64,000 nt of DNA from a bacterium HR17. GTDB taxonomy: Bacteria > Armatimonadota > Fervidibacteria > Fervidibacterales > Fervidibacteraceae. Made by a program: the position numbers and the translations under genes. The stretch covers positions 1-64,000 of the forward strand of contig BEHT01000016.1 of NCBI GenBank assembly GCA_002898575.1, read 5' to 3'. This document shows, piece by piece, positions 3,560 through 28,670 of this stretch (within the stretch, counting starts at the first letter, position 1; every line of letters begins with the position of its first letter). The notes below the pieces were generated by a model, which did not search any database, was not told the origin of the DNA, and was given only the letters and a program-made list of their open reading frames with translations.

Positions 3560-3585
3560 TTTCCGTGTCTTGGTCAGTCGTGTCA

Positions 3586-4167: not shown

Positions 4168-4336
4168 TAACGGCGACGGCGAGTCTTGATGGAAGGTGTC
4201 TTGGATGCCAAAATGGCGGATGACTGTTGAGGTTCAGGTCGGTGAAAATTTTATTGACAGTTGACGGATAAAACGGGCAAAGGGAAAAAACAAAGGTAAT
4301 CAACTGCCGGTGCCCACTAACATTTAGGCAAGTCAA

Positions 4337-4597: not shown

Positions 4598-4618
4598 CGA
4601 TAGAAGAGGTGATGCAGC

Positions 4619-4858
4619 GTGACCCTTCACTACGACCCAACGACCGACATGTTGGTCATCGTGTTCAAAGACAAACCCAGCACTGAGTCGGAAGAAATTG
4701 CACCGGGCATTGTCTTAGATGTTGACGAGAACGGCAATATCGTCGGCATGGAAATTGAAGATGCGACCCAACGGGTAGACCTAAGCCGCTTAGAAATTGC
4801 CCATTTGCCTCTGACCAATTTGGTCGTCCGCCAAGCCCCTGTCACATCAGGGCGATAG
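4619..4858 (+). CDS. DUF2283 domain protein, possible antitoxin partner
   Basis: 79 residues, GTG start preceded by AGAGGTG. The sequence has the DUF2283 pattern: LHYDPTTDMLVIVF at the start, then EEIAPGIVLDVDENGNIVG, MEIEDATQRV and a short Leu-rich end. DUF2283 proteins are small beta-strand/helix proteins of unknown biochemical role, frequently next to small DUF4258-like genes, which has led to the proposal that they act as antitoxins. Family assignment is strong from the sequence; the antitoxin role is inference from the neighbour at 4337. Confidence 0.8.
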   Translation: MTLHYDPTTDMLVIVFKDKPSTESEEIAPGIVLDVDENGNIVGMEIEDATQRVDLSRLEIAHLPLTNLVVRQAPVTSGR

Positions 4859-4914
4859 GCAGACAAGGGGCTGACGCTCGCCAATCAAGACAATTAGATG
4901 GTCAGGGAAACTCG

Positions 4915-5314
4915 GTCGCGTCGCCCCTTGCGAGCGACGGTTGTTAGAAAATCCAAAACAAAGTAGCGTCGTCCCTTGTTGACGACGGCAGTTACATCCG
5001 TCGGGGATAAACCCCGACGCTACCGATGAATTGAGGTAGCGTCGTCCCTCGTGGACGACGGCAGTTCAAAGGACCGTCGGGGACAAGCCCTGACGCTACG
5101 CAAATGGTGGTGACAAGGGTTTGAGATCTTCTTGTGTGTTGAACAATGGGGTTTGTTCGGAGGGCGGCTCTCTTGAGCCGCCGAAAAGTGGCAAGAAAAC
5201 CACAAGGGCGTGGCAGGAGACACGCCCTCCGAGGGACGAAGGAAATTGCAACTTCCAAAGTCGTCCCTTGCAAGCGACGGCAGTTTAACGATCGTCGGAG
5301 ACAAGCCCCGACGC
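4915..5314. repeat. Family B/A repeat cluster; right copy of the direct repeat around the DUF2283 cassette
   Basis: Positions 4924-5090 equal 3586-3752 and 5086-5298 equal 3931-4143, with only a single base difference seen (5095 versus 3940). It contains two family B elements, a family A element at about 5156-5233 and a closing B half. The A element keeps the same left flank (TGTTGAACAATGGGG) found in the other copy and, slightly changed, before the array at 21528. No coding sequence is visible from 4859 to 5395. Confidence 0.9.
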
Positions 5315-5395
5315 TCTCAGTGAATTGAAGGTTTTATGGGCGATAGTTACTCAATGAATAGGCGCACCCTCCGAGGCAACTATTTTCAGGGGTGA

Positions 5396-6718: not shown

Positions 6719-6769
6719 TGGGCGCGCCAACTGAGCGCGGCGCAAATTTGTGAAAGGGAGGTGCGTTGA

Positions 6770-7837
6770 ATGCGGCGCAGTCAGTGGCTGTGGTGCGTCG
6801 GTCTGTTGATGGTGTTGACAGCGGGGGCTACAGTGCCCGTTACAGCCGCGCCGATTCACCCAGGACACATTTTTGTCGCTTACGACAGCAGCAACATCGG
6901 CGTCTTCGCCAGCACGGTCTCATTGACCGGTCACCATGTGACGACAATTGACTGCATCACTCCTTACAGTTTCGGGGCATCTGCAGCTGTAGACGGCGGC
7001 GGGGGTGTCGCGTTGGACGAGTGGGGCAATTTGTATGTGACGACAAGCAACGACGGGTCAGGCAAACTGGGCATTGTCAAGGTCAATGCCGACGGCTCGT
7101 TGGCGTTCCGAAGGAGTTACGAGCGTGGGGCGGGCAAGGACCTGCCGAGCAGCGTCACAGATTTTCGGTCTCTAGCCATCCACGACGGTCGGATTTATGT
7201 CGCCACGAACAGCGGCGTCCGCGTCTTTGACGCTGCTACAGGGGCGCGCCTCAGCGGCGCTGACTTTGGGGGAAATTTTGCCTTTCGTGACCTCGTTTTT
7301 GACAGGCAGGGCAACCTTTATGCCCTCCGGGAATCTCCTACCGGCACCGCCGTTATTCACCGCTGGGGAGCCGGTAACCTGACGGGTTCTGGGACCGTTT
7401 TATTCAGTGCGTCCGGCAACACTGACCCCCGAGCGTTGGCGGTGGATGAGCAGGGGCATATCTACTTCACGGCGAACCCATCGGGCGCCCGCGTCGTGCG
7501 CAAGTATAAGTCTGACGGTGCTTTGTTGGCGACTTATAACGCCCCCATCACCACCGGGGTGCTCATCGGCTTGGACTACGACCCGGGAACGCAACGGCTC
7601 TTTGTCAGCCATACAGCCGCGGGCATCGGGCAAATTTTGTGGGTCGACCGCAACGCCCCATCAGGGACGACGATGACGGCTTTTGGTCCTAACAACCTCA
7701 ACGGTGTTCGGTGGCTCGCTGTTTACCCGACGCCAGAGCCTACTGCAAACGCTTTGGTCATGATTGGATTTGGCATAGCGATGGTTGCGCACCAGTGGCG
7801 TGTCCGACGGCGCCGGCGACAACGGTATATCGTGTGA
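6770..7837 (+). CDS. Secreted PEP-CTERM beta-propeller protein
   Basis: 355 residues, ATG behind AAGGGAGGTG. A Sec signal peptide covers about residues 1-28 (RRSQWLW, then a Leu/Val core ending VTAAP). The body has repeating blades of the type GVALDEWGNLYVTT, LVFDRQGNLYALRE and LAVDEQGHIYFTA, typical of NHL/SMP-30-like beta-propellers. The C-terminus is TPEPTANALVMIGFGIAMVA followed by an Arg cluster: a PEP motif, one transmembrane helix and basic residues, the sorting signal cut by exosortases. Such proteins are exported with exopolysaccharide, which fits the surrounding glycosyltransferases. No exosortase gene is in this window. Ligand or function unknown. Confidence 0.85.
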   Translation: MRRSQWLWCVGLLMVLTAGATVPVTAAPIHPGHIFVAYDSSNIGVFASTVSLTGHHVTTIDCITPYSFGASAAVDGGGGVALDEWGNLYVTTSNDGSGKLGIVKVNADGSLAFRRSYERGAGKDLPSSVTDFRSLAIHDGRIYVATNSGVRVFDAATGARLSGADFGGNFAFRDLVFDRQGNLYALRESPTGTAVIHRWGAGNLTGSGTVLFSASGNTDPRALAVDEQGHIYFTANPSGARVVRKYKSDGALLATYNAPITTGVLIGLDYDPGTQRLFVSHTAAGIGQILWVDRNAPSGTTMTAFGPNNLNGVRWLAVYPTPEPTANALVMIGFGIAMVAHQWRVRRRRRQRYIV

Positions 7838-7893
7838 AGATGCCGTCAATTTGTGCGTCGGCTTTGAACTTTCTGCGCGAGGACGATGGTCAC

Positions 7894-9108
7894 ATGCTGA
7901 CCCAACGGATAAAGGCTTTGTCGCGTGGGCACCTTCTGACGATAGTGTTTCTCGTTGCCCTTGCCCTGCGCTTGGCGTTCCTTACGACCAAGCCGTTTGC
8001 GTGGACGCATCAACTGCAAGCCGGCGACGAACCGCTGTATCATGGTGTCGCAGCCAGTTTGACGCAAGGGAAAGGCTACACTCTCAACGGGGAGCCGACG
8101 GCACGCTATGGACCAGGCTATGTGATTTTTATCGCCGCTCTTTACCGTCTTTTGGGGATTTCGCCGCCGGCGGCTCGGGTCGGCAACGCCCTTCTCGGCA
8201 GCCTTTTGTGCGCCCTCATCGCATGGTGGGCGATACAGTTGTGGGGCAACAGAGCGGGGCTTGGGGCAGGGCTTGCCGCTACCGTCTATTACCCGTTCGT
8301 TCAACTGCCTCCATATCTGCTGACGGAAAACCTTTACCTACCGCTCTTCGTCGCCGCTATGATGGTGACTTGGCTATTGTGCGCCGACCGCGCTCGCAAT
8401 GAGCCGGTGGTTAAAGGCGCTTTGGCTGGCACGCTGTGGGGCGTTGCCGCGTTGACCCGCTCTATCGCTTTACCCATCGCGCTCCTTTCAAGCCTTTGGC
8501 TCGGTTTTCGCCGACAGTGGATGCACGCGCTGCTTGCTATCACTTCCCTCATCGCTGTCCTGACGCCTTGGACATTGCGCAATTACAGCGTTTTTGCTGC
8601 CTTTGTGCCGTTGCAACTCTCCGCCGGACACGATTTCTATCTCGCTTTTGGTCCGCCAGGAACCGAGCCCAAAGTTTTGGGGCATTGGAACTGGGGCAGT
8701 GATGTTCAAAGACCGCAAATCCCCAAGGGGCTTTCGCCCGTTGAGCGCGACCGGTGGTTGCAACGAAAGGCATGGGAGCACATAAAGTCCGACCCGATGA
8801 GTGCCATCATCAAGCGCATCCCGCGCAAACTCGCCAACTTGTTGGTGCCCTTCTATGGCCCTGCCAGTTTGCCCAATAAAGTGCTGTCAACGCTGTGCTA
8901 CCTTGCCCTGCTACTGCTTTCTATCCCTGCGTTGGTGCGTTCATGGCGGTCAAAAGACGCAAAGGAGCGAACTTTCACCGAATTGGTTTTGTTGGTCATT
9001 TTGTTCACCGTTACCTTCCACGCCATTTTCTACGGCGTCGTCAGATACCGTTACCCAATTGATGCACTTCTTTTGGTCGCCGTGGGGAAATGGATGGCAA
9101 AATGTTAA
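7894..9108 (+). CDS. Multi-spanning glycosyltransferase, GT39/ArnT-like
   Basis: About 404 residues from ATG 7894, chosen for the GCGAGGA sequence upstream; an in-frame ATG at 7840 would add 18 residues. The first hydrophobic helix (LLTIVFLVALALRLAF) is followed by an extracytoplasmic acidic loop (LQAGDEPLYHGVA), the usual site of the catalytic Asp/Glu in GT-C enzymes, and then many transmembrane segments. It probably transfers a sugar from a polyprenyl-phosphate donor outside the membrane. Its 3' end (about 9034-9104) is duplicated downstream at 9909-9975, so the toxin-antitoxin pair that follows lies between the two copies. Confidence 0.8.
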   Translation: MLTQRIKALSRGHLLTIVFLVALALRLAFLTTKPFAWTHQLQAGDEPLYHGVAASLTQGKGYTLNGEPTARYGPGYVIFIAALYRLLGISPPAARVGNALLGSLLCALIAWWAIQLWGNRAGLGAGLAATVYYPFVQLPPYLLTENLYLPLFVAAMMVTWLLCADRARNEPVVKGALAGTLWGVAALTRSIALPIALLSSLWLGFRRQWMHALLAITSLIAVLTPWTLRNYSVFAAFVPLQLSAGHDFYLAFGPPGTEPKVLGHWNWGSDVQRPQIPKGLSPVERDRWLQRKAWEHIKSDPMSAIIKRIPRKLANLLVPFYGPASLPNKVLSTLCYLALLLLSIPALVRSWRSKDAKERTFTELVLLVILFTVTFHAIFYGVVRYRYPIDALLLVAVGKWMAKC

Positions 9109-9136
9109 GAGAATCCTTTTCAGCGAGGTGAAAGGT

Positions 9137-9385
9137 ATGCCATCGGTTTTAGAAAAGTTAGAGACGCTTGCTCGCCTTACTGACCAAGACGTCACCCTCC
9201 TGCTGGCGAGGGCGTTGGAACTTGGCATAGAGCATCTTTGGGTGCAAATGCACCTTGACCTTTACTTGCGTGGGCAGATTTCCCGTGAACAAGCCATCCA
9301 AGCCGTCGGAGCCGAGTGGGTAGAGCGTGCCGAACGGGCAAGGGAGGCGGTTTTAGAAGATGTCCGATGGGGGTTGGGGTTGTGA
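9137..9385 (+). CDS. Small antitoxin-like protein of a PIN-domain pair
   Basis: 82 residues, ATG at 9137 behind GAGGTGAAAGG. The C-terminal half LYLRGQISREQAIQAVGAE, then WVERAERAREAVLEDVRWGL, resembles the helical UPF0175-like or related small antitoxins found before DUF3368 PIN genes. Its stop codon overlaps the GTG start of the toxin gene at 9382 (GTGA), so the two are translationally coupled. Role expected: binding and neutralising the PIN nuclease and repressing the pair's own promoter. Exact family uncertain. Confidence 0.7.
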   Translation: MPSVLEKLETLARLTDQDVTLLLARALELGIEHLWVQMHLDLYLRGQISREQAIQAVGAEWVERAERAREAVLEDVRWGLGL

Positions 9386-9888
9386 GCCTTTCAGCGGTCA
9401 GCAACGCAGGTCCGTTCATCCACCTCCACCAAATCGGGTTTTTAGAATTGCTGGCAATATTTGACTGCTTGGTGACTTCAGAACAGGTCGTAAAAGAAGT
9501 CACAATGCCGGGAAGAGTGCCTGAGAATTGCATAAACACTTTGGCAAATTTGGTAATCCATCCCGTTACCTTGATGGACATTTTTGACCTGCGTGGTCAG
9601 TTGGTGGGTTTTGATTTGCAGGAAGGTGAGTTAAGCGGTTTATATCTGTGCCGCCAATTGAACATTACCCTTTTCTTGACTGATGACTTAGAAGCCCGTC
9701 GGGCAGCAAAGTTTTTGGGAATGGAACCTCATGGCAGTGTCGGCATCATAGCGCTCGCTTACCACGAAGGTAAACTTACCATGCCTCAAACAAAAGAAGC
9801 CCTATATGCCTTGCTTAACAAAAGCACCTTGTTCCTGACACCTGCCATCGTAGAGCAAGCCATCCAACTTTTGGAGCAATCAACTTAA
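9382..9888 (+). CDS. PIN-like (DUF3368) toxin
   Basis: 168 residues from GTG 9382; an ATG at 9367 is possible but overlaps more. VSNAGPFIHLHQIGFLELL at the N-terminus is the DUF3368 version of the PIN start, where the usual Asp is replaced by Ser-Asn. Conserved Glu (SEQVVKEV), EGELSGLYL and LTDDLEARRAAKFLG complete the acidic site expected for a metal-dependent RNase, followed by HGSVGIIALAYHEGKL. Typical toxin length. Co-expressed with the gene before it. No other toxin-antitoxin component is nearby, and the whole module sits inside a duplicated piece of the neighbouring glycosyltransferase gene. Confidence 0.8.
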   Translation: MSLSAVSNAGPFIHLHQIGFLELLAIFDCLVTSEQVVKEVTMPGRVPENCINTLANLVIHPVTLMDIFDLRGQLVGFDLQEGELSGLYLCRQLNITLFLTDDLEARRAAKFLGMEPHGSVGIIALAYHEGKLTMPQTKEALYALLNKSTLFLTPAIVEQAIQLLEQST

Positions 9889-9908
9889 CGAGTATCACAA
9901 TGCCTAAA

Positions 9909-9978
9909 GCGTCGTCCGTTACCGTTACCCGATTGATGCACTTCTTTTGGTCGCCGTGGGGAAATGAATGGCAAAAAG
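9909..9978 (+). repeat. Duplicated 3' end of the upstream GT39-like gene
   Basis: This stretch repeats about 9034-9104 with few differences. It reads YRYPIDALLLVAVGK in the same frame and then stops (TGA), where the intact gene continues with WMAKC. The direct repeat of roughly 65-70 bases flanks the PIN toxin-antitoxin pair. Confidence 0.85.
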
Positions 9979-9982
9979 GGAT

Positions 9983-10020
9983 GAATAAAGTAGCGTCGCC
10001 CCTTGCGGGCGACGGTTGTT
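9983..10020. repeat. Half copy of family B repeat
   Basis: GTAGCGTCGCCCCTTGCGGG and the following GCGACGG form the left hairpin arm of family B; the right arm is missing. It ends just before the ribosome binding site of the next gene (start 10042). Confidence 0.8.
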
Positions 10021-10041
10021 GAAAGCAAAGGGGGAAGTGAA

Positions 10042-11286
10042 GTGGCGACGATAAAGGGGCGCCCATTCGTTTCACTGGTGGCTGTCGCTCTCTCGTTGTT
10101 CCTCATTGCGACTACTGCTAAACTGACGATGGGCAAAGGTAAGGCGTTGTTCGTAAGCGATGGCTTCTACTACTATGCCTACACCGTTTCGTTAATGCTG
10201 GATAGGGATTTGGACTTTAGCAATCAGTATCAGTTCAATAGGGGGCGTGGTAATCCGGCATTTGCTTACATCGTGCCTGAGACGGGGCGCCCGGCCAATC
10301 AGTATGGTATCGGCTTAGGTCTGCTTTGGCTTCCTGCCTTTGCTGCTACTCATTTAGTCGCTTTAATGCTAAAGGCGTTAGGTTTGCCTTTGTCCGCGAG
10401 CGGTTACGAACTTTACTACGAACTGCCCACGTATCTTTGGAGTTTCCTTTTGGGCTTGGCTGGGATGTATTTGCTTTATCGTCTGCTCACTGAACTTTTT
10501 GAGCATCGCTATGCTTTCTGGGCGACAATTGGGATAATGTTTGGGACAGCATTGAGCAACTACGCGTTCCTCCATGCCAACATGTCCCACTGGGTTTCCG
10601 CTGCTTGTTCAGTTGCATACCTTTACGCCGTCTATCGCGTTTATCGGCAACCTTCAGATGTTCATTGGTGGTTAATTTCAGGGGCTGCTTTGGGATTAGC
10701 AGCAATGGTGCGGTATCAAAATGCCGCCTTAGGGGTCTTGCTTGTTGGACTTCTGTGGCAACTCTTGCGGGAGCAAAAATGGCGTAATTTGGTCGTCGGG
10801 TTAACCGCTCATGTCTTTGCCGCAGTCGCTATTTTCTTGCCTCAAATTTTCGCTTGGCAGGCAATCTATGGTGAGTCAATAACCAACCCATATGGCAGTT
10901 ATGTTCGTTGGCTTACCCCCAATTTCAGTTACATCGCTTGGCTTTATGCCTACTCGCCACTGCTGCTTTTAGCGACTTGGGGGTTCTTTAGGCAGTTCCC
11001 ACCCACAGTTCCGATGACTTTTTTAGTTTCTGTTACCTTAGCGCTGTTGGTTCAACTTTATGTCAATTGCGCCTTGCCTGAAGTAGGCGGCTATGGCGTC
11101 CGCCGCATGACGGATTTCTTCCCTTATTTCGGCGTCGCTTTAGCAAACGCTTTGAGAGTTTTGGATGAGCTGGTGAAGAAGCAAATTAGCCCAATCACAA
11201 CCTTCAGTGCGGTCGGCGTGAACTGGCTGCTTATCGCTGGCTTTTACTTGCGTCAATTGCTTTCTGGCGGTCGCTTCCACTTTTGA
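10042..11286 (+). CDS. Polytopic membrane glycosyltransferase-like protein
   Basis: 414 residues from GTG 10042, preceded by AAGGGGGAAG; the open frame upstream is repeat sequence. About ten hydrophobic segments are visible. After the first helix comes GKGKALFVSDGFYYYAYT, an acidic extracytoplasmic loop, and then NQYGIGLGLLWLPAF, a layout shared with GT-C transferases and PMT/ArnT-like proteins of unknown acceptor. It looks similar in plan to the gene at 7894 but not closely related in sequence. It probably extends or decorates the surface glycan. By eye its third positions look more A/T-rich than those of later genes, a possible sign of transfer, not calculated. Confidence 0.7.
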   Translation: MATIKGRPFVSLVAVALSLFLIATTAKLTMGKGKALFVSDGFYYYAYTVSLMLDRDLDFSNQYQFNRGRGNPAFAYIVPETGRPANQYGIGLGLLWLPAFAATHLVALMLKALGLPLSASGYELYYELPTYLWSFLLGLAGMYLLYRLLTELFEHRYAFWATIGIMFGTALSNYAFLHANMSHWVSAACSVAYLYAVYRVYRQPSDVHWWLISGAALGLAAMVRYQNAALGVLLVGLLWQLLREQKWRNLVVGLTAHVFAAVAIFLPQIFAWQAIYGESITNPYGSYVRWLTPNFSYIAWLYAYSPLLLLATWGFFRQFPPTVPMTFLVSVTLALLVQLYVNCALPEVGGYGVRRMTDFFPYFGVALANALRVLDELVKKQISPITTFSAVGVNWLLIAGFYLRQLLSGGRFHF

Positions 11287-11296
11287 GTTCAAAGAC

Positions 11297-11344
11297 CGTC
11301 GGGGACAAGTTTAAACGACCGTCGGGGACAAGCCCCGACGCTAC
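11297..11344. repeat. Two right halves of family B repeat
   Basis: Two consecutive GACCGTCGGGGACAAG-type arms, the second complete with CCCCGACGCTACC. They fill most of the gap between the membrane protein ending at 11286 and the GT2 gene. Confidence 0.85.
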
Positions 11345-11376
11345 CGAAATAACGTCAACGGTCGGAGGTGTCTCCA

Positions 11377-12600
11377 ATGGTGCAGAAAGTTCAAACTGCC
11401 GCGGAGTCAGCGTCAGGGATTTTCCAACCCGAAGTCTCCATCGTCATCCCTTGCCTGAACGAGGAAAACAGCATTGGCATTGTGGTTGAGAAGGCGCGGC
11501 AGGCAATTGAAATGATGGGCGTTTCTGGCGAGGTCGTTGTTGCCGACAACGGTTCTACCGACCGTTCCGTTGAAATTGCCCTTTCAAAGGGGGCGCGGGT
11601 CGTCCATGTCCCTCAGAAGGGCTACGGCAGTGCCCTGCGAGGTGGAATTGAAGCGGCGAGGGGCAAAATCATCGTCATCGGCGACGCCGACGACAGTTAT
11701 GACTTTTTGGAAGCGCCGAAATTGATGGCAAAAATCAAGGAAGGCTACGATTTGGTCGTCGGCTCGCGGTTCAAGGGATGCATTTTGCCCGGCGCGATGC
11801 CTTGGACGAGCAAAATCGGCAACCCCATCATGACTACAACTTTCAACCTTCTCTTTCGGGTCAAAACCAGCGATTCCCAAAGCGGTATGAGAGCATTCAC
11901 CAAAGAAGCCTACCAAAAGATGCAACTTCACGCGACAGGCATGGAGTTTGCGTCGGAAATGCTGATCAAGGCGGGCAAGGCGAAACTGAAAGTCACTGAG
12001 GTGCCCATAACTTTGCATCCTGACAAACGCGGTCGCCCGCCTCACTTGCGCCCTATTCGGGACGGCTGGCGCCACTTGAAACTGATGCTTACATACAGCC
12101 CGACGGTGCTCTTTTTGGTGCCTGGCTTAGCGCTGATGCTTTTAGGCTTGTTGCTGATGGGCATTCACCTTTTGGCTCCCATGGACAAACCCCTTTGGCT
12201 TTTCGGAAAACTCCGCATGGACTTTCACTGGGCAATAGTCGGCAGCCTGCTAACGCTGACAGGCTACCAAGTCATCACTGCTCACTTCATGGCGAAAATT
12301 TACTCTGTCACCCACCGATTTCAGGAAGAGGACCGCATCCTCCAATACGGTTTCCGTTATTTGAACGCCGAACGGATGTTGCTGTTGAGTCTGATCGCAA
12401 TCGCCATCGGCTTGGCGATGGACGGTTGGGTATTTTGGGATTGGGTGCGCCGCGGGTATCACGGATTGGTATCAGGGCACACCCGCTTGGTCATCTTCGG
12501 CTCCACACTCATCGCTTTGGGCATTCAGAACTTTTTCAACGCCTTCTTGTTCAGCATCCTGAGCGAGGGCTACCGGCAAAACCGAACTTTGCGTAGTTGA
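11377..12600 (+). CDS. Family 2 glycosyltransferase, dolichyl-phosphate-type, with C-terminal membrane segments
   Basis: 407 residues from ATG 11377, which sits six bases after GGAGGTG. Residues 20-240 are a GT-A domain: VSIVIPCLNEENSIGIVVE, VVVADNGSTDRSVE, then IVIGDADDSYDF (the metal-binding DAD) and the acceptor motif SGMRAFTKEAY. From about residue 245 four hydrophobic helices follow, as in DPM1/GtrB-like enzymes with a membrane tail. Expected role: moving a sugar from a nucleotide donor onto polyprenyl phosphate, making the donor used by the two GT-C type enzymes upstream. Confidence 0.9.
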   Translation: MVQKVQTAAESASGIFQPEVSIVIPCLNEENSIGIVVEKARQAIEMMGVSGEVVVADNGSTDRSVEIALSKGARVVHVPQKGYGSALRGGIEAARGKIIVIGDADDSYDFLEAPKLMAKIKEGYDLVVGSRFKGCILPGAMPWTSKIGNPIMTTTFNLLFRVKTSDSQSGMRAFTKEAYQKMQLHATGMEFASEMLIKAGKAKLKVTEVPITLHPDKRGRPPHLRPIRDGWRHLKLMLTYSPTVLFLVPGLALMLLGLLLMGIHLLAPMDKPLWLFGKLRMDFHWAIVGSLLTLTGYQVITAHFMAKIYSVTHRFQEEDRILQYGFRYLNAERMLLLSLIAIAIGLAMDGWVFWDWVRRGYHGLVSGHTRLVIFGSTLIALGIQNFFNAFLFSILSEGYRQNRTLRS

Positions 12601-12651
12601 GGAGTGAGAATCTCTCCTAAACCGAAAAAGTTCTAGAGGTGTCTCCTGTAT

Positions 12652-13248
12652 ATGAGTCTTGGCTGGCTTGGAGTCTTGAGCATCGCCGTAACTGCTTTCC
12701 TTGACGCGGCGTTGGTGCCCATTTCCGTTCAGGCGCTGCTGGTCGGTGCCGCACTCGCCTACCCTCAGTGGGCATGGATGCTTGTCGGTGTTTACGCTTT
12801 GGCTTCAGCGGCAGGTTCGTGCGTCGGGTATTCGTTGGGACGCTACGGGCTTGCGACGCCTTTGTTGAGACGGTTTCCTCCTGAAAAGGTGAAGCAAGCC
12901 CAAACGCAAATGCGCCGTTACGGTCCGTTCATCGTGGCGTTGGGCGGGACGACACCGCTGCCCTTTCCGCTGTTCACCATCGCTGCTGGGATGTTTCGGG
13001 TTTCTTTGCCCTTATTGCTGCTGGCGGTTAGCATCGGACGGGGCGCGAAAGCAGTTCTATTCGTTTTCGTCAGCGCCCACATTGGGCGTCCGGTGTTAGA
13101 CCAAACCGTTAAACACCATTCAGGTCTGATTATCGGTGTGGCAGTCTTGGTGGCATTGGTAGGGACATGGTTGGGCTGGCGCTCTTGGCAAAAGAAGGTA
13201 GCGTCGCCCCTTACGGGCGACGGTCGTTTAAACGACCGTCGGGGATAA
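12652..13248 (+). CDS. VTT/DedA-like (SNARE-associated) membrane protein with repeat-derived tail
   Basis: 198 residues. Five or so hydrophobic segments; the central part GYSLGRYGL, then RRYGPFIVALGGTTPLPFPL, fits the VTT (DedA/YqaA) family of lipid or polyprenyl-lipid transport proteins. YqaA-like members are small, as here. The last residues VASPLTGDGRLNDRRG are not family sequence: they are the translation of a family B palindrome starting at 13197, which also supplies the stop codon. The natural end was therefore probably replaced by the repeat. Located within the glycan locus, so a role in recycling the lipid carrier is possible but unproven. Confidence 0.8.
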   Translation: MSLGWLGVLSIAVTAFLDAALVPISVQALLVGAALAYPQWAWMLVGVYALASAAGSCVGYSLGRYGLATPLLRRFPPEKVKQAQTQMRRYGPFIVALGGTTPLPFPLFTIAAGMFRVSLPLLLLAVSIGRGAKAVLFVFVSAHIGRPVLDQTVKHHSGLIIGVAVLVALVGTWLGWRSWQKKVASPLTGDGRLNDRRG

Positions 13249-13305
13249 ACCCTGACGCTACCGATGAGTTGAAGGTGTAGCGTCGCCTCTTGTGGATAGC
13301 GGCTG
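13197..13305. repeat. Complete family B element plus a half copy
   Basis: 13197-13262 is a full 66-bp element with left arm GTCGCCCC/GGGCGAC, the palindromic spacer GTTTAAAC, right arm GTCGGGG/CCCTGAC (one mismatch) and outer GGTAGC/GCTACC. A degraded left half follows at 13278-13305. The first 52 bases are inside the coding frame of the gene ending at 13248. Confidence 0.9.
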
Positions 13306-13329
13306 TTCAGACGACTTTACGGTTCGGAG

Positions 13330-13731
13330 ATGACCATCCATGACCCCCGTCAACAAATTTTTGCCATCGCAGCGAGCATCGTCATCGTTTTGTTGGTGTT
13401 TGAACTCGTTCGGCGCAAGCGGCTTAGGGAAGAATACACTTGGTTGTGGATGCTCAGTGCCGCAACGATTTTCCTCATCACCGTCTGTTATGACCTGTTA
13501 GTTGCCGTCACGAGGCTGATTGGTGCTGTCCTACCGACAACGACTATCTTTTTGTTCGGCATCCTGTTCCTCTACCTGATTAGCCTTCACTACGCCGTCA
13601 AGATGACCGCCTTGCGCGAACAGGTCAAAAACCTTGCTCAAGGCTATGCGTTGTTGGAGGCGGAATTGAGGGAGCAGGGACGGCAGGATGACGGGATAAC
13701 GAGACGGCAGGACGATAGGACAGAAAAATAA
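13330..13731 (+). CDS. DUF2304 family membrane protein
   Basis: 133 residues. Three hydrophobic helices (FAIAASIVIVLLVFELV, then a Trp/Ala-rich helix, then TIFLFGILFLYLISLHYA) followed by a helical cytoplasmic tail (ALREQVKNLAQGYALLEAEL). This is the DUF2304 pattern, small proteins commonly encoded next to GT2 glycosyltransferases in surface polysaccharide loci; their biochemical role is unknown. The final 15 residues (REQGRQDDGITRRQDDRTEK) come from a purine-rich GACGG-type simple repeat and look like a low-complexity extension. Confidence 0.82.
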   Translation: MTIHDPRQQIFAIAASIVIVLLVFELVRRKRLREEYTWLWMLSAATIFLITVCYDLLVAVTRLIGAVLPTTTIFLFGILFLYLISLHYAVKMTALREQVKNLAQGYALLEAELREQGRQDDGITRRQDDRTEK

Positions 13732-13756
13732 ACCGACGCGCCCGCCGAAGAGGAAA

Positions 13757-14059
13757 AACATCGGCGCATCAGGAGATGCGCCCTCCGAACCTCGGAGGGC
13801 GGCTCTCCTGAGCCGCCGTAATCGGCGCGTCAGGAAACTCTCGGAGGGCGGCTCTCTGAGCCGCCGAATGGCAGCGCGTTCCGAAAAGGAAAACATCGGC
13901 GCGTCGGGAGACGCGCCCTCCGAAGAAAGCGGCGCATCGGAGATGCGCCCTCCGAGGAGAAATCGGCGCGTCGGGAGACGCGCCCTCCGAACCTCGGAGG
14001 GCGGCTCTCCTGAGCCGCCGCCAAAAACAAGCGGCGCATCGGAGATGCGCCCTCCGAAG
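13757..14059. repeat. Family A repeat cluster
   Basis: Several complete and rearranged family A elements: left arms GGCGGCTC/GAGCCGCC at about 13797, 13850 and 13998, and right arms of two types (GGCGCATC or GGCGCGTC) at about 13764, 13903, 13932, 13964 and 14033. The segment around 13842-13920 is nearly the same as 21981-22060, so whole blocks have been copied between loci. No gene is visible between 13732 and 14106. Confidence 0.92.
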
Positions 14060-14106
14060 AAAGTGGCGTGTCCGGGAGATGCGTCTTACGAACAGAGGTG
14101 ACCTCT

Positions 14107-16005
14107 GTGTGTGGCATTTGCGGTTTCGTGAGTTTGCAGCCCGTTGACGGTGGCGAGCGTATTCTGCAGCGGATGGTAGAAACGCTTCGCCATCGCGGTC
14201 CAGATGGGTGTAATGTGTGTCGCGTAATGCGTAATGCTTACTTGGGACATACCCGCCTTGCCATCATTGACCTTTCGGAAGCGGGCAGGCAGCCGATGCC
14301 CAACGAGGACGGTTCTGTTTGGGTCACCTACAACGGCGAAATTTACAACTTCCTTGAATTGCGGGCTTTGTTGGAGCAAAAAGGGCATCAATTCCGCTCC
14401 CGCACCGACACCGAAGTCCTCGTCCACGCTTACGAGGAATGGGGCGATAGGTTCGTTCAGAGACTTAGGGGCATGTTTGCCTTCGGCATATGGGACGGGG
14501 GACGAGGGACGGGAGATGGGAAGTTGCTTTTGGTGCGGGATCGGCTCGGCGTCAAGCCGCTTTACTACGCCCATTTGCCTGACGGAACGATTGTGTTCGC
14601 TTCGGAACTGCAAGCGGTCTTGGAGCACCCTGAAGTCAGCGCCGAAATTGACCCCCTCGCCGTTGACGCTTATTTCGCCTACGGTTACATCCCAGCGCCC
14701 TTAACAATTTACAAGTCAGTGCGGAAGTTGCCACCTGCCCATTACCTCGTGTGGGAAAACGGTGAAATTCGTTTGCACCGTTACTGGCAGTTGGATTTCA
14801 CGCACAAGCGGAGCGAAAGCGAAGATGAACTTGCTGAGGAGTTGCGGGAGAGGTTGAAAGAAACCGTCAAGTTACACATGGTCAGTGATGTCCCGTTGGG
14901 TGCGTTTTTGAGTGGCGGGATGGATTCATCGTCCATCGTGGCGTTGATGGCGCAGGTGAGTGACCGCCCCGTCAAAACCTTCTCCATCGGCTTTGACGAT
15001 GACCGCTACGACGAGTTGCCCTACGCCCGCTTGATCGCCCAGCGTTACGGGACAGAGCACCACGAGTTCACTGTTGCCGCACCGACGGCGGCGTTGATGC
15101 CTGATTTGATCGGCTATTTCGGCGAACCGTTCGCTGACAGTTCGGCGTTGCCGACTTACATTGTTTCCAAGATGGCGCGGGGGCATGTCACGGTCGTGCT
15201 GTCGGGTGACGGTGGCGATGAGATTTTTGCCGGCTACGAGTGGACGCGAAGGGCACTGCTGTGGGGTAGGGGAGGAGCGGAACCGTCGCTGACGGCGGCG
15301 AAGCCGCGCCCCGTTGACCCCTGGCGCGAGGCGCTCATTCGGCACGGCACCGATTGGTGGCACCGATTGGTCAAGGCATGGCGGGACTTCCGGGCAGGTC
15401 CTATCGCGACCTTCCAGCGCCGGACTCGCACGCCGTTGCCCATCCGCCAGCTGCTTTACAGCGCTGACCTGCGGACGGCGTTAAACGGGCAAACAGCGGA
15501 CACCTTCCAAGACGCGTTGCTGCAGGCAGCGCCGGTGAGCGATTGGCGAGAGGCGTTGTTGTATGGCGACATGCTGTTATACTTGCCTGACGATTGCTTG
15601 ACGAAAGTGGACCGGATGAGCATGGCGGTAGCGTTGGAGGTGCGCCCGCCCTTGTTAGACCACATATTGGTGGAGTTTGCGGCGTCTTTGCCGTTTGAGA
15701 TGAAACTGCGGGGACGAACGACCAAGTATCTGCTGAAAAAGGCGATGACAAAGGACTTGCCATCCGAAACGATGCAGCAGCGCAAGCAAGGGTTCAGTGT
15801 CCCTGTCGCCAAATGGATGCAGGGGCAACTGGCGGAGGAGTTGTTGGCTTTGCTCAGCAAAAATGACCCGTTTGTGAACGGCGAGACGGTGCGGCAAATG
15901 GTTGAATGGCACCGCAGCGGCAAAGCCAACTTGGGTCATTTGCTCTGGCGGCTGTATGTTTGGGCGGTGTGGCAGCACCGAAGAGAAACCATCCGTCGGG
16001 GATGA
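14107..16005 (+). CDS. asnB: Asparagine synthase (glutamine-hydrolysing), surface-glycan type
   Basis: 632 residues. The GTG start at 14107 is fixed by the catalytic Cys directly after it (CGICGF), as the N-terminal glutaminase needs Cys at position 2; GAGGTGA lies six bases upstream. The glutaminase domain covers about 1-200 (RHRGPDG, HTRLAIIDLS, VTYNGEIYNF). The synthetase domain has the PPi loop SGGMDSSSI near 280 and VLSGDGGDEIFAGYEW. Two G-rich insertions interrupt it (DGGRGTGDGK and WGRGGAEPSLT). The last residues IRRG and the stop codon lie in a family B repeat half. Members in such loci usually amidate sugar acids rather than make free asparagine; here that is inference from position. 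Confidence 0.9.
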   Translation: MCGICGFVSLQPVDGGERILQRMVETLRHRGPDGCNVCRVMRNAYLGHTRLAIIDLSEAGRQPMPNEDGSVWVTYNGEIYNFLELRALLEQKGHQFRSRTDTEVLVHAYEEWGDRFVQRLRGMFAFGIWDGGRGTGDGKLLLVRDRLGVKPLYYAHLPDGTIVFASELQAVLEHPEVSAEIDPLAVDAYFAYGYIPAPLTIYKSVRKLPPAHYLVWENGEIRLHRYWQLDFTHKRSESEDELAEELRERLKETVKLHMVSDVPLGAFLSGGMDSSSIVALMAQVSDRPVKTFSIGFDDDRYDELPYARLIAQRYGTEHHEFTVAAPTAALMPDLIGYFGEPFADSSALPTYIVSKMARGHVTVVLSGDGGDEIFAGYEWTRRALLWGRGGAEPSLTAAKPRPVDPWREALIRHGTDWWHRLVKAWRDFRAGPIATFQRRTRTPLPIRQLLYSADLRTALNGQTADTFQDALLQAAPVSDWREALLYGDMLLYLPDDCLTKVDRMSMAVALEVRPPLLDHILVEFAASLPFEMKLRGRTTKYLLKKAMTKDLPSETMQQRKQGFSVPVAKWMQGQLAEELLALLSKNDPFVNGETVRQMVEWHRSGKANLGHLLWRLYVWAVWQHRRETIRRG

Positions 16006-16338: not shown

Positions 16339-16341
16339 GTG

Positions 16342-17457
16342 ATGGGCGTGTATCGGTTTGCCTTTCTCGTGCACCCGTTGGATGTGAAACGCGATGTCGC
16401 CCGAAAGTATCCCATCGCCCAATGGTTGCCTGAAAGTTGGGTGGAAGCCCTCTTACGCTGCATGCGGGTGAAAGTGTTGGGCAAAATCACGGGTGTCCGA
16501 TCGCTGACAGGCGCCACGACGGAAGGTTGGCTGCTGGGCGTTCCGATGACGGCGCAGATGATGCGCGCTGACGAACGACGGGCGTTGGCGTTGCTTAAGG
16601 ACGCTTGCCGTCTCGCTGCCGACTTGGGAGCCCACATCGTCGGCTTAGGCGCTTACACCGCCATCGTCGGCAATAACGGTATGGAACTGCAAGAACAATC
16701 GCCCTTGCCCGTCACAACCGGCAACAGTTACACCACTTGGACAGCGGTGGAAGCGACGAAATTGGCTGCTGAAGCGATGGGCATTGAGTGGGAACGGGCA
16801 ACCGCTGCCGTCGTCGGCGCCACAGGCTCCATCGGGCGTGCTTGCGCGCATTTTTTGGCGTGCGGAGCGAAGGGGCAAGGGGTCACATTGCCGCCCGTTG
16901 CCCGCGTGACGCTGGTCGGGCGGGACCGCGAGCGGTTGGAGGCACTGCGAGCGGCGTTGAGCCCGCAGGCGGACACCGCAACGCGCGCGACGACCGACAT
17001 CGCAGATGGGCTGCGGGACGCTGACATCGTCATCACAGTGACGAGCGCAATGGACGCTGTCATTGAGCCAGACCACTTAAAGCCGGGTTGTGTCGTCTGC
17101 GATGTGGCGCGCCCGCGCGATGTGTCCGAGCGGGTGAAGCGGGAGCGAGACGATGTGCTGGTCATTGACGGCGGTGTCGTCCGAGTGCCGGGGGCGCCCT
17201 GTTGGGAGTTTTCCATTGGGCTGCCTTCTGACCGCACCCTCGCATGCGTTGCCGAGACAATGTTGTTGGCGTTGGAAGGGCGGCTGGAGCCCTTCACCTT
17301 GGGGCGAGAGATTCCGATAGAGCGGGTCGTGACCATCGCCGAAATGGCGGCGCGGCATGGGTTCGTCGTAGACGGGCTACGCAGTTTTGAACGGGTCTTG
17401 GACGCCGACGCCATCGCTCGCATCCGCCAGCGGGTCAAGGTGGTTGCCGAGCGATGA
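16342..17457 (+). CDS. Acyl-ACP reductase (AAR)-like NAD(P)-dependent oxidoreductase
   Basis: 371 residues, ATG 16342 behind GCGAGAGG. The layout matches long-chain acyl-ACP reductases of cyanobacteria: an N-terminal part ending in TTGNSYTTWTAVEATK, a Rossmann motif VVGATGSIGRACAHFL near 155-170, VTLVGRDRERLEAL, then HLKPGCVVCDVARPRDVSE. In AAR the Cys at the equivalent LKPPC position is the acyl-binding residue, and here it is kept (LKPGC). The end, LACVAETMLLALEG then ISxE-like IERVVTIAEMAARHGF, also parallels AAR. Predicted to reduce a fatty acyl thioester to an aldehyde, or a related semialdehyde reaction. No aldehyde deformylating oxygenase is nearby. Its stop overlaps the DUF2723 gene start (ATGA). 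Confidence 0.7.
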   Translation: MGVYRFAFLVHPLDVKRDVARKYPIAQWLPESWVEALLRCMRVKVLGKITGVRSLTGATTEGWLLGVPMTAQMMRADERRALALLKDACRLAADLGAHIVGLGAYTAIVGNNGMELQEQSPLPVTTGNSYTTWTAVEATKLAAEAMGIEWERATAAVVGATGSIGRACAHFLACGAKGQGVTLPPVARVTLVGRDRERLEALRAALSPQADTATRATTDIADGLRDADIVITVTSAMDAVIEPDHLKPGCVVCDVARPRDVSERVKRERDDVLVIDGGVVRVPGAPCWEFSIGLPSDRTLACVAETMLLALEGRLEPFTLGREIPIERVVTIAEMAARHGFVVDGLRSFERVLDADAIARIRQRVKVVAER

Positions 17458-19376
17458 CGCTGCGCGTCCCTTCCGTCGTCACCGCCTCTTGGCAGTCGCC
17501 GCAATGGCGATGGTGGGGTGGGTTAGCGCTGGCGGTCGGCATACCCTTTGCCGTTTACCTTCCGACCCTTTACCCCACTTATTGCTTTTTCGCCGACAGC
17601 GGCGACTTCATGGCGGCGGCAACGCTCCTGATGCCGCCCCACCCGACAGGCTACCCATGGTTTTGCCTGCTGAACAAGTTATTTGTGACGCTGCTGCCCG
17701 TCGGGACGGTTGTCTGGCGTTTCAGTTTGCTGACAGCACTGTTCGTGCCACTGACAGCGGGCGCCGCGTTTTTACTGGTAATGCACCTAACGAACAACGC
17801 CCTCGTGGCGCTGGCGACGGCGTGGACGCTGGCGTTTGGGCGGATGCTGTGGTTCAGTGCTGTGTCAACAGAGGTTTACAGTTCCAATCTGTTCCTGACG
17901 GTGCTGGCGTTGCTGGCGCTGGTGCGGTTCTGGCAGACAGGTGATAAGCGTTGGTTCTACACCGTCGGGCTGACGGTAGGGTTTGGAGCGGCGCACCATT
18001 TGACGCTGCCGCTCATGGCGCTAGGCGGGTTGATAGGGCTGTTAGTGGCACGGCGATGGGTGCCGCAGCGCCCGTCGCTGCGCGATTGGCTGATAGCAAC
18101 GCTGTTTGTCTGCTTACCCTTGACCTACTACGCTTACTTACCGCTGCGGGCGCCGAAGCCTTACGGAGCGCGCTACTGGCAAAACACGGGCGATGACCCG
18201 TCCAAATCGGTGCGGGATTTCGTCCGCTATGTGCTGGGGCAACGGTTCCGCTCTGCGATGGAGGCGCTTCCGGCGCACCAACGGGTGCAGCGGTTCGGCG
18301 AGTGGCTGGCGGCTGGCGTCCAGCAACACGGGGCGCTGTTCGTTTTGGGCATTGGGCTGGCGTGGTTGTTAGTTGTGAGGTATTGCGCCTTTTTCGCCGT
18401 CACGCTGGGGATGTGGCTGGCGCACATGGCGTTCTATCTCGGCTACGATGTGCCCGACATTGCCTACTTTTTCGTGCCCGCGTGGTCGGTGACGGTGCTG
18501 TGGGGTGGGTTAGTAAGCCACGATTTGATGAACTGGCTGCAGAAACGCGCTCCAGTGGTAGCGCTGGTCGTCGCGGGGTTGGCGCTGAGCAGCGCAGAAG
18601 TGGCTCTGCTGCACGCTTTGCCTTGGGTCTGGGGCGTGGACAAAGACCGAGGGCGTCGCTATTTAACCGCCGTGCTCCGAGATACACCCCGCAACGCCGC
18701 GTTGCTTGTCAGCATTGACGATACGATGTTCAATCTGTGGGCGTTACAAGCCATTGAAGAACGGCGGCGCGATGTGCGGGTCGTTTCGGTTTACGAGTGG
18801 CAGCCGACATTGCCGTTACAGCGCCCCGTCGCAACGACGACCGCTGACCTTTACCGATTTTTCAACCCGCAACCGTGGTTCGTTTACCCCGTCAGCCGCT
18901 GGGTGGCGCTGCTGAAAAGGGCACCGCCCGTCACAGCAGTGCGTTCCTGCCACGCTCATCGCAGCCCACAGCCTATCGTGCATCGGGCTCGGTTGCTGCC
19001 CCCCCCTGACGGTGTCCACATCGGTGGGCTGTTGGTGGCGGAGACGGAAGTGTGTGTGTCACAAGATGCAGCGGCGCTGGGCGGTTACCTTTGGCTGCTG
19101 GCACGGCGCCCCGTGAGCATCACCGACGCTAACGGTCCGCAAACGGGCATGTGGGCGTGGTGGTGGTTTTATCAACCCTTCACGCAGTTGCCCCCGGGAC
19201 GCTGGGTCGTGCGGATGACCGTGGGCTTGCCCGTCATCAGCACCATCGCGCCCGGCGAACTGGAGGTGCGGGGGCTGCCGGTGCTGGCATGGCAGGTGCC
19301 GCGTAACGCCGCCCAAATGCAAGGGTTGTGGCAAAAAGCGCGACGCCTCGGCGTCGTCACCGTGTGGGGGCGTTAA
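17454..19376 (+). CDS. DUF2723 polytopic membrane protein
   Basis: 640 residues. The ATG overlaps the previous stop, so translation is coupled. YCFFADSGDFMAAATLL followed by PPHPTGYPWFCLLNKLF is the DUF2723 signature: an acidic residue in the first periplasmic loop and a PHPTGYP motif, as in GT-C O-mannosyltransferase-like proteins. About ten transmembrane helices span residues 20-390; the remaining 250 residues form a soluble C-terminal domain, partly beta-rich. Likely a sugar transferase acting on exported proteins or lipids with a polyprenyl-linked donor. The coupling with an acyl-ACP-reductase-like enzyme is unusual and suggests a lipid-related acceptor. Confidence 0.85.
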   Translation: MTLRVPSVVTASWQSPQWRWWGGLALAVGIPFAVYLPTLYPTYCFFADSGDFMAAATLLMPPHPTGYPWFCLLNKLFVTLLPVGTVVWRFSLLTALFVPLTAGAAFLLVMHLTNNALVALATAWTLAFGRMLWFSAVSTEVYSSNLFLTVLALLALVRFWQTGDKRWFYTVGLTVGFGAAHHLTLPLMALGGLIGLLVARRWVPQRPSLRDWLIATLFVCLPLTYYAYLPLRAPKPYGARYWQNTGDDPSKSVRDFVRYVLGQRFRSAMEALPAHQRVQRFGEWLAAGVQQHGALFVLGIGLAWLLVVRYCAFFAVTLGMWLAHMAFYLGYDVPDIAYFFVPAWSVTVLWGGLVSHDLMNWLQKRAPVVALVVAGLALSSAEVALLHALPWVWGVDKDRGRRYLTAVLRDTPRNAALLVSIDDTMFNLWALQAIEERRRDVRVVSVYEWQPTLPLQRPVATTTADLYRFFNPQPWFVYPVSRWVALLKRAPPVTAVRSCHAHRSPQPIVHRARLLPPPDGVHIGGLLVAETEVCVSQDAAALGGYLWLLARRPVSITDANGPQTGMWAWWWFYQPFTQLPPGRWVVRMTVGLPVISTIAPGELEVRGLPVLAWQVPRNAAQMQGLWQKARRLGVVTVWGR

Positions 19377-26719: not shown

Positions 26720-27472
26720 ATGCCGCACATCGTCGTCCGTAACTTGAGCGTCGCTTACGACGGGTATGTCGCCCTGCGCGATGTGACGGTGGAAATTCCT
26801 GACGGGCAAATCACTGTCGTGTTAGGACCGTCGGGCTGCGGCAAGACGACCTTTCTGCGCTGCCTCAATCGGCTGATTGACCTGACTGAGGGGGCGAAGG
26901 TGACGGGCGAGGTGCTGATTGATGGCGAGAACATTTTGGCGCCTGACGCCGATATCCTACGGTTGCGCAAAAAGATGGGCATGCTCCAGCAAAAGCCGAC
27001 GGTGCTGCCGATGTCCATCTACGACAACATCGCCTTTGGCGCCTGGCTGCACGGCGTTCGCGACAAAAGAGGGCTGGACGAAGTGGTGGAGCGTTGCTTG
27101 CGCATGGTGCATTTGTGGGACGAAGTGAAAGACCGGCTCAAAGCGCCCGCCACGCAATTGTCCATCGGGCAACAGCAGCGATTGTGCTTAGCCCGCTCGC
27201 TGGCGGTCGCCCCCGAAGTGTTGTTGTGCGACGAACCGACTTCCGCCTTAGACCCTATCAGCGCCCAACACATTGAAAACCTGTTCCGCCAGTTGAGGGG
27301 CACATACACCCTCATCATCGTCACCCACACGCTACGACAGGCGAAACGCCTGGCGGACTACGGGCTGTTCTTTTACATGGGCGAGTTGGTGGAACACGGG
27401 GCGGCAGCGGACATTTTCAGCGCCCCGCGTGACGAACGGACGCGGGCGTTTTTGGCGGGCGTTATCGGTTGA
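26720..27472 (+). CDS. pstB: Phosphate ABC transporter ATP-binding protein
   Basis: 250 residues, the usual PstB length. Walker A GPSGCGKTTFLRCLNRL at 35-51 (the CLNR after it is typical of PstB), Q-loop GMLQQKPTVLPMSIYDNIAFG, signature LSIGQQQRLCLARSLA near 148-163, Walker B VLLCDEPTSALDP near 167-179, and the His switch VTHTLRQAKRLADY. Drives phosphate import by ATP hydrolysis at the inner face. No phoU follows; instead the gene ends against a convergent luxE-like gene with an 11-base overlap. Confidence 0.95.
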   Translation: MPHIVVRNLSVAYDGYVALRDVTVEIPDGQITVVLGPSGCGKTTFLRCLNRLIDLTEGAKVTGEVLIDGENILAPDADILRLRKKMGMLQQKPTVLPMSIYDNIAFGAWLHGVRDKRGLDEVVERCLRMVHLWDEVKDRLKAPATQLSIGQQQRLCLARSLAVAPEVLLCDEPTSALDPISAQHIENLFRQLRGTYTLIIVTHTLRQAKRLADYGLFFYMGELVEHGAAADIFSAPRDERTRAFLAGVIG

Positions 27473-28616
27473 TTGACATCCCGCCCGACAGCAATTCGTC
27501 CACCAATACGGAGCAGCCCCGCAATTCGCTACCGTGGGCTCGTCCCAACAGGACAAAACCGTCGCCGACTTTGATGCCGACATCCTCCGTCAGCACTGCC
27601 ATGACCGAACCGCGGTTGGCAAGGTCGTAATGGCACAGCAATCCCCGTTCTCCCTCGGCGACCTCTTGAAGCGTTTCGGGGTGCACGACTTTTGTGCGCA
27701 CCCATGGCGGCGGCAAATGGTAGCGGGGCGATAAATGCGCGTTACGGGACGCAATCGCATCGGGCACGCAATAGGGTTGACCGACGACACCGTCGTAAAA
27801 CTGCGATGACAGTTCCGCCATGCCGTATTCGTTGACGCAGTGTTCGGGTGAGATTCCCAAGACGCGTTCGTAAAGGCGCAGCAGTTCGTCGCGGGCGACT
27901 TCGCGCGAGCGCCCTTTAAACCCGCCCGTGTCCATCAACCGGCTGCCTTCAGGCAACCGAAAGGTTGCGCCCGTTTGGGCACACCAGTCCAAAAAGTGCA
28001 CGAAGGAAAAGGAGGTGCCCAGCAACATCATGGGCGTGCCCTCCGCTTCTGCCTGCCGCAACCGCGCCGCCAACTCTTCTGCCAACAGTTTACCGCCCCG
28101 AATGAACCAACAATTGTCCTGCGCTCTGAACCCTGCAGCCCATTTGTTTGCGATGGTCAACAGCATATGCCCCAGCGATGAATAGGGCAACTCGTCAGGC
28201 GGTGGGAACAAAATGGCGGTGGGCATCGGGCGCCGTTCGGGTAACAAGTGGGGTTCAAACCAGCGGAGCACGGACGCTTCGTAAAGGCGCAAGTTGAAGA
28301 CGAAATGGCGGCTGCGAGCGGTTGCGCCGCGCGTCGTCCCGCTGGACAAAAAAATGGCTTGGGCTTGTTCAACAGGCTCGCATGCCAGAGGCAACACCTT
28401 GAACGCGTGCGTCGGAACGGGCGGAATCTGTGACCAATGGGTCACCGTCGCCGGCGTGACACCCCGTTGCTGGCACAGCGTTCGGTAAGGTGTATTGCGC
28501 TCAACCTGGTAGGCGAACACTTGAAGCGCCAGCGCGTTAAATGCCGCTTCGTCCCGTTCGCCGCGCTCTATGAACGCCAGAATCGCTGCGTCTAATTGGT
28601 CAGTTGCTGATGACAT
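27462..28616 (-). CDS. LuxE-like acyl-protein synthetase
   Basis: 384 residues from ATG 28616. It has the LuxE/acyl-protein synthetase plan of the adenylate-forming superfamily: an N-terminal helical part with FAYQVERNTPYRTLC, then PTHAFKVLPL, the substrate/AMP loop FLSSGTTRGATARSRH near 94-109, and the C-terminal CVNEYGMAELSSQFYD. In LuxE this enzyme activates a fatty acid as acyl-AMP and holds it on a Cys before a reductase takes it over. No luxC is adjacent, though an acyl-ACP-reductase-like gene lies 10 kb upstream. The substrate here could also be another carboxylic acid. Confidence 0.8.
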   Translation of the reverse strand: MSSATDQLDAAILAFIERGERDEAAFNALALQVFAYQVERNTPYRTLCQQRGVTPATVTHWSQIPPVPTHAFKVLPLACEPVEQAQAIFLSSGTTRGATARSRHFVFNLRLYEASVLRWFEPHLLPERRPMPTAILFPPPDELPYSSLGHMLLTIANKWAAGFRAQDNCWFIRGGKLLAEELAARLRQAEAEGTPMMLLGTSFSFVHFLDWCAQTGATFRLPEGSRLMDTGGFKGRSREVARDELLRLYERVLGISPEHCVNEYGMAELSSQFYDGVVGQPYCVPDAIASRNAHLSPRYHLPPPWVRTKVVHPETLQEVAEGERGLLCHYDLANRGSVMAVLTEDVGIKVGDGFVLLGRAHGSELRGCSVLVDELLSGGMSINR

Positions 28617-28670
28617 CGGCAGCACCACCGTGCACAGACCATCGGTTCAGACGCGTCCGTTTTGTTTGAA

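Follow-up and report, generated by a model that had tools for sequence, protein, structure and literature searches.

The described systems closest to the gene analysed here are the cyanobacterial acyl-ACP reductase (AAR), the N-terminal reductase domain of PigE and the TAD of the carmabin pathway. Outside the cyanobacteria, we know of no agreed role for enzymes of the AAR family. Here, we examine a member of this superfamily encoded at 16342..17457 on the forward strand of a 64,000-nucleotide stretch from the bacterium HR17 (contig BEHT01000016.1; phylum Armatimonadota), to which we refer as the window. We propose that this protein is an NADPH-dependent acyl-thioester reductase that, together with a partner protein encoded elsewhere in the same genome, supplies an aldehyde for a membrane lipid; our rough probability for this proposal as a whole is 65%. 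The first-pass annotation of the window had instead paired the reductase with the DUF2723 membrane protein encoded immediately downstream. In our view, the stronger finding is a two-protein reductase that spans the phylum and has an AAR-fold subunit without annotation.

The reductase has 371 amino acids counted from its ATG, with an alternative GTG start at 16339. It is a member of the AAR superfamily by its whole-chain fold, its cysteine and its GxxGxxG motif. In NCBIfam, the PigE model NF053554 matches best (1.6e-65), followed by the AAR model TIGR04058 (4.6e-33) and then by glutamyl-tRNA reductase (8.9e-9). The AAR score of 114.9 bits stays below the curated cut-off of 449.7; of PigE, which is defined by a fusion to a class-III aminotransferase and a score above 850 bits, the protein has the reductase part only, at 222 bits. 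A phmmer search of the Protein Data Bank (PDB) likewise placed PigE (4ppm, 3.4e-44) ahead of AAR (6jzq, 2.5e-25). Judged by these scores, the nearest characterised sequence is the reductase domain of PigE and not the cyanobacterial AAR. At the level of structure, the AlphaFold model, built with 67 sequences (pLDDT 94.4), matches AAR 6jzu with Z 37.4 (root-mean-square deviation (rmsd) 2.5, 321 aligned residues, 30% identity), and Foldseek gives 7.7e-24 against the AAR fold; the carmabin TAD is a near-equal structural match (Z 36.8, 18% identity). The only Pfam model above its cut-off is Shikimate_DH (PF01488, 1.8e-10), which covers the Rossmann part and would suit a relative of shikimate dehydrogenase or glutamyl-tRNA reductase rather than of AAR. 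This reading is disfavoured and hardly credible, since the best matches to these two folds reach Z 14.8 and 14.3, respectively, and glutamyl-tRNA reductase comes third in NCBIfam. The first-pass annotation had proposed a comparison with these two families as the test of its AAR assignment, and the assignment withstood it.

The putative active site points in the same direction. In the phmmer alignment with 6jzq, C302 (codon 17245..17247, +) is aligned with the catalytic C294 of cyanobacterial AAR, a residue described as strictly conserved among AAR homologues in passages of PMC8187606. C302 sits in the motif TLACVAE and is a Cys in all 67 homologues of alignment A2, as well as in all 97 reductase rows that result when 14 further Chloroflexota sequences and 16 fused sequences are added; E305 is likewise invariant in the 97 rows. 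The dinucleotide (NADPH) motif GATGSIG (residues 159-165; 16816..16836, +) retains its three Gly residues in 97/97 rows and in 6jzq, and the third of these is kept in one of the four PigE-type rows. The cysteine that had at first been singled out as the key residue lies in LKPGC (residue 250; codon 17089..17091, +). This position is a Cys in 4 and an Ala in 60 of the 67 homologues; we rejected it as the catalytic residue, and the equivalent of the catalytic Cys is C302. By homology, the acyl chain of acyl-ACP or acyl-CoA would be transferred to C302 to form a thioester, from which NADPH bound at GATGSIG would allow release of a fatty aldehyde. That the reductase catalyses aldehyde formation is, in our view, very likely.

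The distribution of the reductase is that of a core gene. Among 291 genomes of Armatimonadota, a homologue at E≤1e-20 is present in 271 and, among the 194 good genomes (at least 90% complete and at most 5% contaminated), in 190, nearly always in a single copy. Thus, the open reading frame (ORF) is far from a chance one, and the gene is not an exotic acquisition. The AAR fold and the catalytic Cys would also fit an AAR of a cyanobacterial-type alkane pathway. This explanation, too, is disfavoured, and we rejected it: the aldehyde-deformylating oxygenase (ADO; PF11266) has no match in any of the 291 genomes, including that of the window, while the Synechococcus elongatus control matched, and the reductase scores far under the AAR cut-off. 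The probability that we leave to an alkane pathway is negligible, and the first-pass annotation was right that a deformylating oxygenase partner is absent. A different alternative is that the enzyme acts on another thioester, as PigE or the carmabin TAD do, yielding a small aldehyde that would go into a cofactor or a secondary metabolite. While no characterised sequence is closer than PigE, and TAD matches equally well in structure, a near-universal, single-copy presence across a phylum is unlike secondary metabolism, and no biosynthetic cluster is evident in the 67 loci that we compared, making this alternative improbable.

These 67 neighbourhoods comprise 60 loci from the phylum, 6 from a search of genome contigs and the window itself. 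Their ORFs come from a plain ORF scan rather than from a gene finder, ORFs overlapping better-supported ones were dropped for the comparison, and many of the neighbourhoods are cut by contig ends. Within them, the commonest neighbour of the reductase is an unannotated protein of ~306 amino acids, hereafter the partner. The partner gene is found at position -1 in 29 and at +1 in 3 of the 67 neighbourhoods, i.e., it is adjacent in 32/67, and it lies further off within the locus in 4/67. Six loci (L034, L046, L048, L049, L085 and L089) have a four-base overlap between the two genes. Searches of Pfam and NCBIfam with the partner gave nothing up to E=1, and it has no meaningful match among PDB sequences and no match in a plasmid search. 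It is present in 273/291 genomes of the phylum and in 192/194 of the good ones; 20 genomes are without the reductase, 18 without the partner and 11 without both. In the genome of the window, the partner gene is on another contig (C9; L099, L100:8815-9735, +). Upstream of it, at L100:7744-8831 (+), two ORFs that lack Pfam matches overlap in different frames and resemble a single membrane protein that is broken or frameshifted; the ATG of the partner gene falls within the terminal part of the second ORF.

The association between the two proteins is also seen outside the phylum. Among 301 genomes of Chloroflexota, the phylum of Thermoflexus, 48 have the partner, 53 the reductase and 46 both (Fisher test, 3e-44, ignoring kinship). 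In 27 of these genomes, partner and reductase form a single ORF of ~685-875 amino acids, and in all 16 fused ORFs that were fetched (from 15 genomes), the partner precedes the reductase. Upon removal of the 27 genomes with a fusion, both proteins, the reductase only, the partner only and neither are found in 19, 7, 2 and 246 genomes, respectively (1.5e-21, again ignoring kinship). In a quick tree, the 16 fused reductases lie on one branch (95), and the reductase of the window groups with those of its own family (99); the branches of AAR_6jzq, L143, L145 and L037 are long and doubtful, and the PigE-type L156, a partial domain match, was left out. Five of the six genomes behind the loci from the genome-contig search have the partner, which is missing in that of a Candidatus Omnitrophica. 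We infer with considerable confidence that the reductase acts together with the partner in a heteromer, in which the partner would likely serve as a subunit binding the reductase, ACP or the product.

Some individual loci deserve mention. The fused protein is carried by L117 (genome G414) and by L148 (genome G462), and G462 has it twice. Some Chloroflexota genomes, such as G351 and G301 (L126 and L129), encode the partner twice; the additional copy is diverged, lies apart from the first and adjoins genes for an MBL-fold hydrolase and, named from their sequences, an MFS-like protein and an alpha/beta hydrolase-like protein. In the Omnitrophica locus (L037:5274-6857, +), a single long ORF encodes an AAR-type reductase preceded by a polyketide-cyclase-like domain.

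The predicted structure of the partner suggests what kind of subunit it may be. In its model (36 sequences; pLDDT 94.8), the nine best VIA rows are AAR or the related TAD, with Z 12.4-13.9, and glutamate dehydrogenases follow at 10.7; the match to AAR 6jzy has Z 13.9 with an rmsd of 4.4, 251 of 306 residues aligned and 14% identity. Foldseek places malic enzyme first and AAR second. When the two families are read against each other, the partner's SFGTNVMEGVL corresponds to TAYACMSETM of the reductase at the same helix start, and VSAVDRFG corresponds to VVGATGSIG. By this reading, the column equivalent to the catalytic Cys holds Asn in 48, Asp in 11 and Ala in 5 of 64 partner sequences and Cys in none, and that of the middle Gly holds Asp, Glu or Asn in 64/64 (alignment A1, from which the truncated 241-residue partner of L051 was left out). 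We read the partner as probably a pseudo-reductase subunit, one whose pocket has been remodelled. Because the Cys and the glycine motif are both lost, it is most likely non-catalytic or differently catalytic; because K95, D126, R127 and N266 are highly conserved among the unfused partners, it is possible that it has an activity of its own.

If the complex makes a fatty aldehyde, we suggest that this aldehyde feeds a membrane lipid rather than an alkane, a role that we consider somewhat better supported than its alternatives taken together. In Chloroflexota with unfused genes, the gene before the reductase is in many cases a hexapeptide transferase, and genes for a MobA-like NTP transferase and a PAP2 phosphatase commonly come after that of the partner; such surroundings would fit a role in envelope or lipid synthesis. 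Our best guess for the product, tentative and clearly short of even odds, is a long-chain alkylamine as in the N-glyceroyl-alkylamine phosphoglycolipids of Deinococcota. This lipid class has reportedly been known from Deinococcus since 1985, and N-glyceroyl-alkylamine lipids are said, in the title of a 2025 report, to dominate several Bacillota lipidomes. In a literature search, we found no paper on the genes for their biosynthesis. Passages of PMC3398001 and PMC3035268 describe N-glyceroyl alkylamine as a constituent of the phosphoglycolipids of Thermus and Deinococcus, and entries in Table 1 of PMC13274423 report N-glyceroyl alkylamines for Moorella thermoacetica. Among 14 control genomes, TIGR04058 at E≤1e-12 matches three, i.e., S. 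elongatus and the two Deinococcota Thermus composti and Deinobacterium chartae; TIGR04058 was used for these controls because the PigE family profile matched 14/14, we think via its aminotransferase half, and was therefore useless for the purpose. The annotation of the partner family in Deinococcota is presumably "quinate 5-dehydrogenase". A gene family with this name, deino9.00587, is listed in the relevant part of PMC9425974 for 33 of 33 genomes of a Deinococcus set and as present in Thermus. In the boldest form of our proposal, which we regard as doubtful, reductase and partner would be the missing first enzyme in the synthesis of N-glyceroyl-alkylamine phosphoglycolipids in Deinococcota and certain Bacillota; the same or a sister class of aldehyde-derived membrane lipid would be made by almost all of the window's phylum and by part of the Chloroflexota.

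An alkylamine would call for a class-III aminotransferase, which makes natural fusions to such an enzyme relevant. Reductase and class-III aminotransferase are joined in PigE, and a Chloroflexota protein (G441; L143:4018-6564, +) has them in the reverse order, with the aminotransferase (amino acids 31-424) before the AAR-type reductase. At E≤1e-20, the partner is absent from the G441 genome. A plasmid search with the reductase returned 16 records, 12 of which carry a class-III aminotransferase annotation over the matched region.

A rival to the amine is the alcohol: a further reduction could turn the aldehyde into a fatty alcohol, from which wax esters or other alcohol-derived lipids would be made. 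Wax esters are produced by Chloroflexus and Roseiflexus, according to passages of PMC4400912, and the fused form of the two proteins occurs in Chloroflexota genomes. The wax ester synthase family WS/DGAT (PF03007) has no match in the 291 genomes of the window's phylum, with no control matching either, so that its absence is unproven, and this reading does not fit the lipids of Deinococcota. We consider this fate of the aldehyde unlikely.

Several observations weigh against our proposal, either as a whole or in its parts. First, concerning the amine, no conserved aminotransferase lies beside the reductase in the 67 loci, where not every neighbour is annotated, and we found no lipid data showing alkylamines in the window's phylum. 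Second, concerning the substrate, the reductase is nearer in sequence to PigE, which acts on something other than a membrane acyl chain, than to AAR, and the wax esters of Chloroflexus and Roseiflexus are a different aldehyde product. Third, concerning the complex, the seven Chloroflexota genomes with the reductase alone and the two with the partner alone depart from strict co-occurrence. Fourth, a profile-profile comparison between partner and reductase detected no homology (probability 0.6%); the paralogy of the partner with AAR therefore rests on the modelled fold. The equivalence of C302 and N266 is our own reading of a helix start and a motif and not taken from a printed structural alignment. 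Finally, the presumed tie of the partner to Deinococcota depends on the annotation name "quinate 5-dehydrogenase".

The gene downstream of the reductase (17454..19376, +) encodes a DUF2723/TMEM260-like GT-C membrane protein of 640 amino acids, which is a member of its family by the Pfam cut-off (PF11028, 3.4e-18; 66.5 bits against a gathering threshold of 24.2) and the sole PF11028 match in the window's genome. By the ORF coordinates, the two genes share the four bases ATGA at 17454..17457 (+), so that the overlap with a GT-C type membrane protein noted in the first-pass annotation is real. From this overlap arose the idea of a dedicated two-gene unit in which the DUF2723 enzyme glycosylates a fatty-aldehyde-derived acceptor. 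In its favour, the same four-base overlap, with a DUF2723 orthologue (PF11028, 3e-19), is kept in another genus of the window's family (L040; genome G061); GT-C genes of another family and a different cluster (PMT_2) lie at +1 of the reductase in L085 and L086; a PMT_2 GT-C gene (L100:6090-7544) lies near the partner gene in the window's genome; and the alkylamine lipids of Thermus and Deinococcus are described as glycosylated in passages of PMC3398001 and PMC3035268. The gene-neighbourhood comparison tells against it: only two of the 67 loci, the window and L040, have DUF2723 at +1, and both belong to one family, while the reductase is in 271/291 genomes, and the neighbours in Chloroflexota are instead the hexapeptide transferase for the reductase and the NTP transferase and PAP2 phosphatase for the partner. 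In L039, the third member of the family, the neighbourhood ends at a contig end. DUF2723 is, therefore, a lineage-specific neighbour of the reductase and is rejected as its general partner, and a glycosylation pair as the core function is quite improbable, slightly more so than the small-aldehyde alternative. Because L085 and L086 carry PMT_2 beside the reductase, a recurrent, loose tie to GT-C enzymes is possible. Under the membrane-lipid proposal, the downstream GT-C gene may glycosylate the lipid as an add-on in the window's family.

A LuxE-family acyl-activating gene is present at 27462..28628 on the reverse strand (PF04443, 1.2e-17), as had been reported; a link between it and the reductase did not hold up, with its cluster in 2/67 loci, and we rejected the link and judged the gene to be outside the unit. 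A second LuxE-family gene lies in L084. Dus-like, CoaX-like, LysS-like and UbiA-like neighbours (clusters 2, 3, 4 and 7, named by reading their sequences) provide housekeeping context only. Positions 1205-16005 of the window form a dense glycan/envelope region with two GT4-type transferases, a GT2, a VTT-domain protein, DUF2304, two PMT-like GT-C proteins, one of them below the Pfam cut-off, and an asparagine-synthase-like amidotransferase near the XrtA/PEP-CTERM type (TIGR03108, 643 of 817 bits).

Altogether, co-occurrence, shared operons and gene fusion link a core gene of a whole phylum to a protein family for which neither Pfam nor NCBIfam has a model, and a vague annotation becomes a predicted two-protein complex that is open to test. 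If the proposal is true, an active AAR subunit and an AAR-fold subunit with a rebuilt active site would make up a new kind of fatty-aldehyde-forming complex; if, in addition, the product is an alkylamine, the two genes would be candidates for the synthesis of N-glyceroyl-alkylamine lipids.

How this system compares with those already described can be summarised as follows. TMEM260-like/DUF2723 proteins (PF11028) include the downstream protein, and their coupling to the reductase is seen solely in the window's family of genomes. The "quinate 5-dehydrogenase" deino9.00587 of Deinococcus and Thermus is tentatively likened to the partner by the name of its annotation. The carmabin TAD (named from the titles of PDB entries 9e4s, 9e4u, 9e50 and 9e56) has the same fold as the reductase but, with residue numbers of ~1926-2309, is a piece of a much larger protein. 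The N-terminal domain of PigE (NF053554; 4ppm) is closest in sequence and has the same Cys in those three of the four PigE-type rows that are readable there, whereas the reductase of the window stands alone, without a class-III aminotransferase domain. Finally, the reductase shares with cyanobacterial AAR (TIGR04058; 6jzq, 6jzu and 6jzy) the whole-chain fold, the catalytic Cys and the GxxGxxG motif, but differs from it in scoring 115 of 450 bits, in occurring without ADO and in having an AAR-fold partner to which it is sometimes fused.

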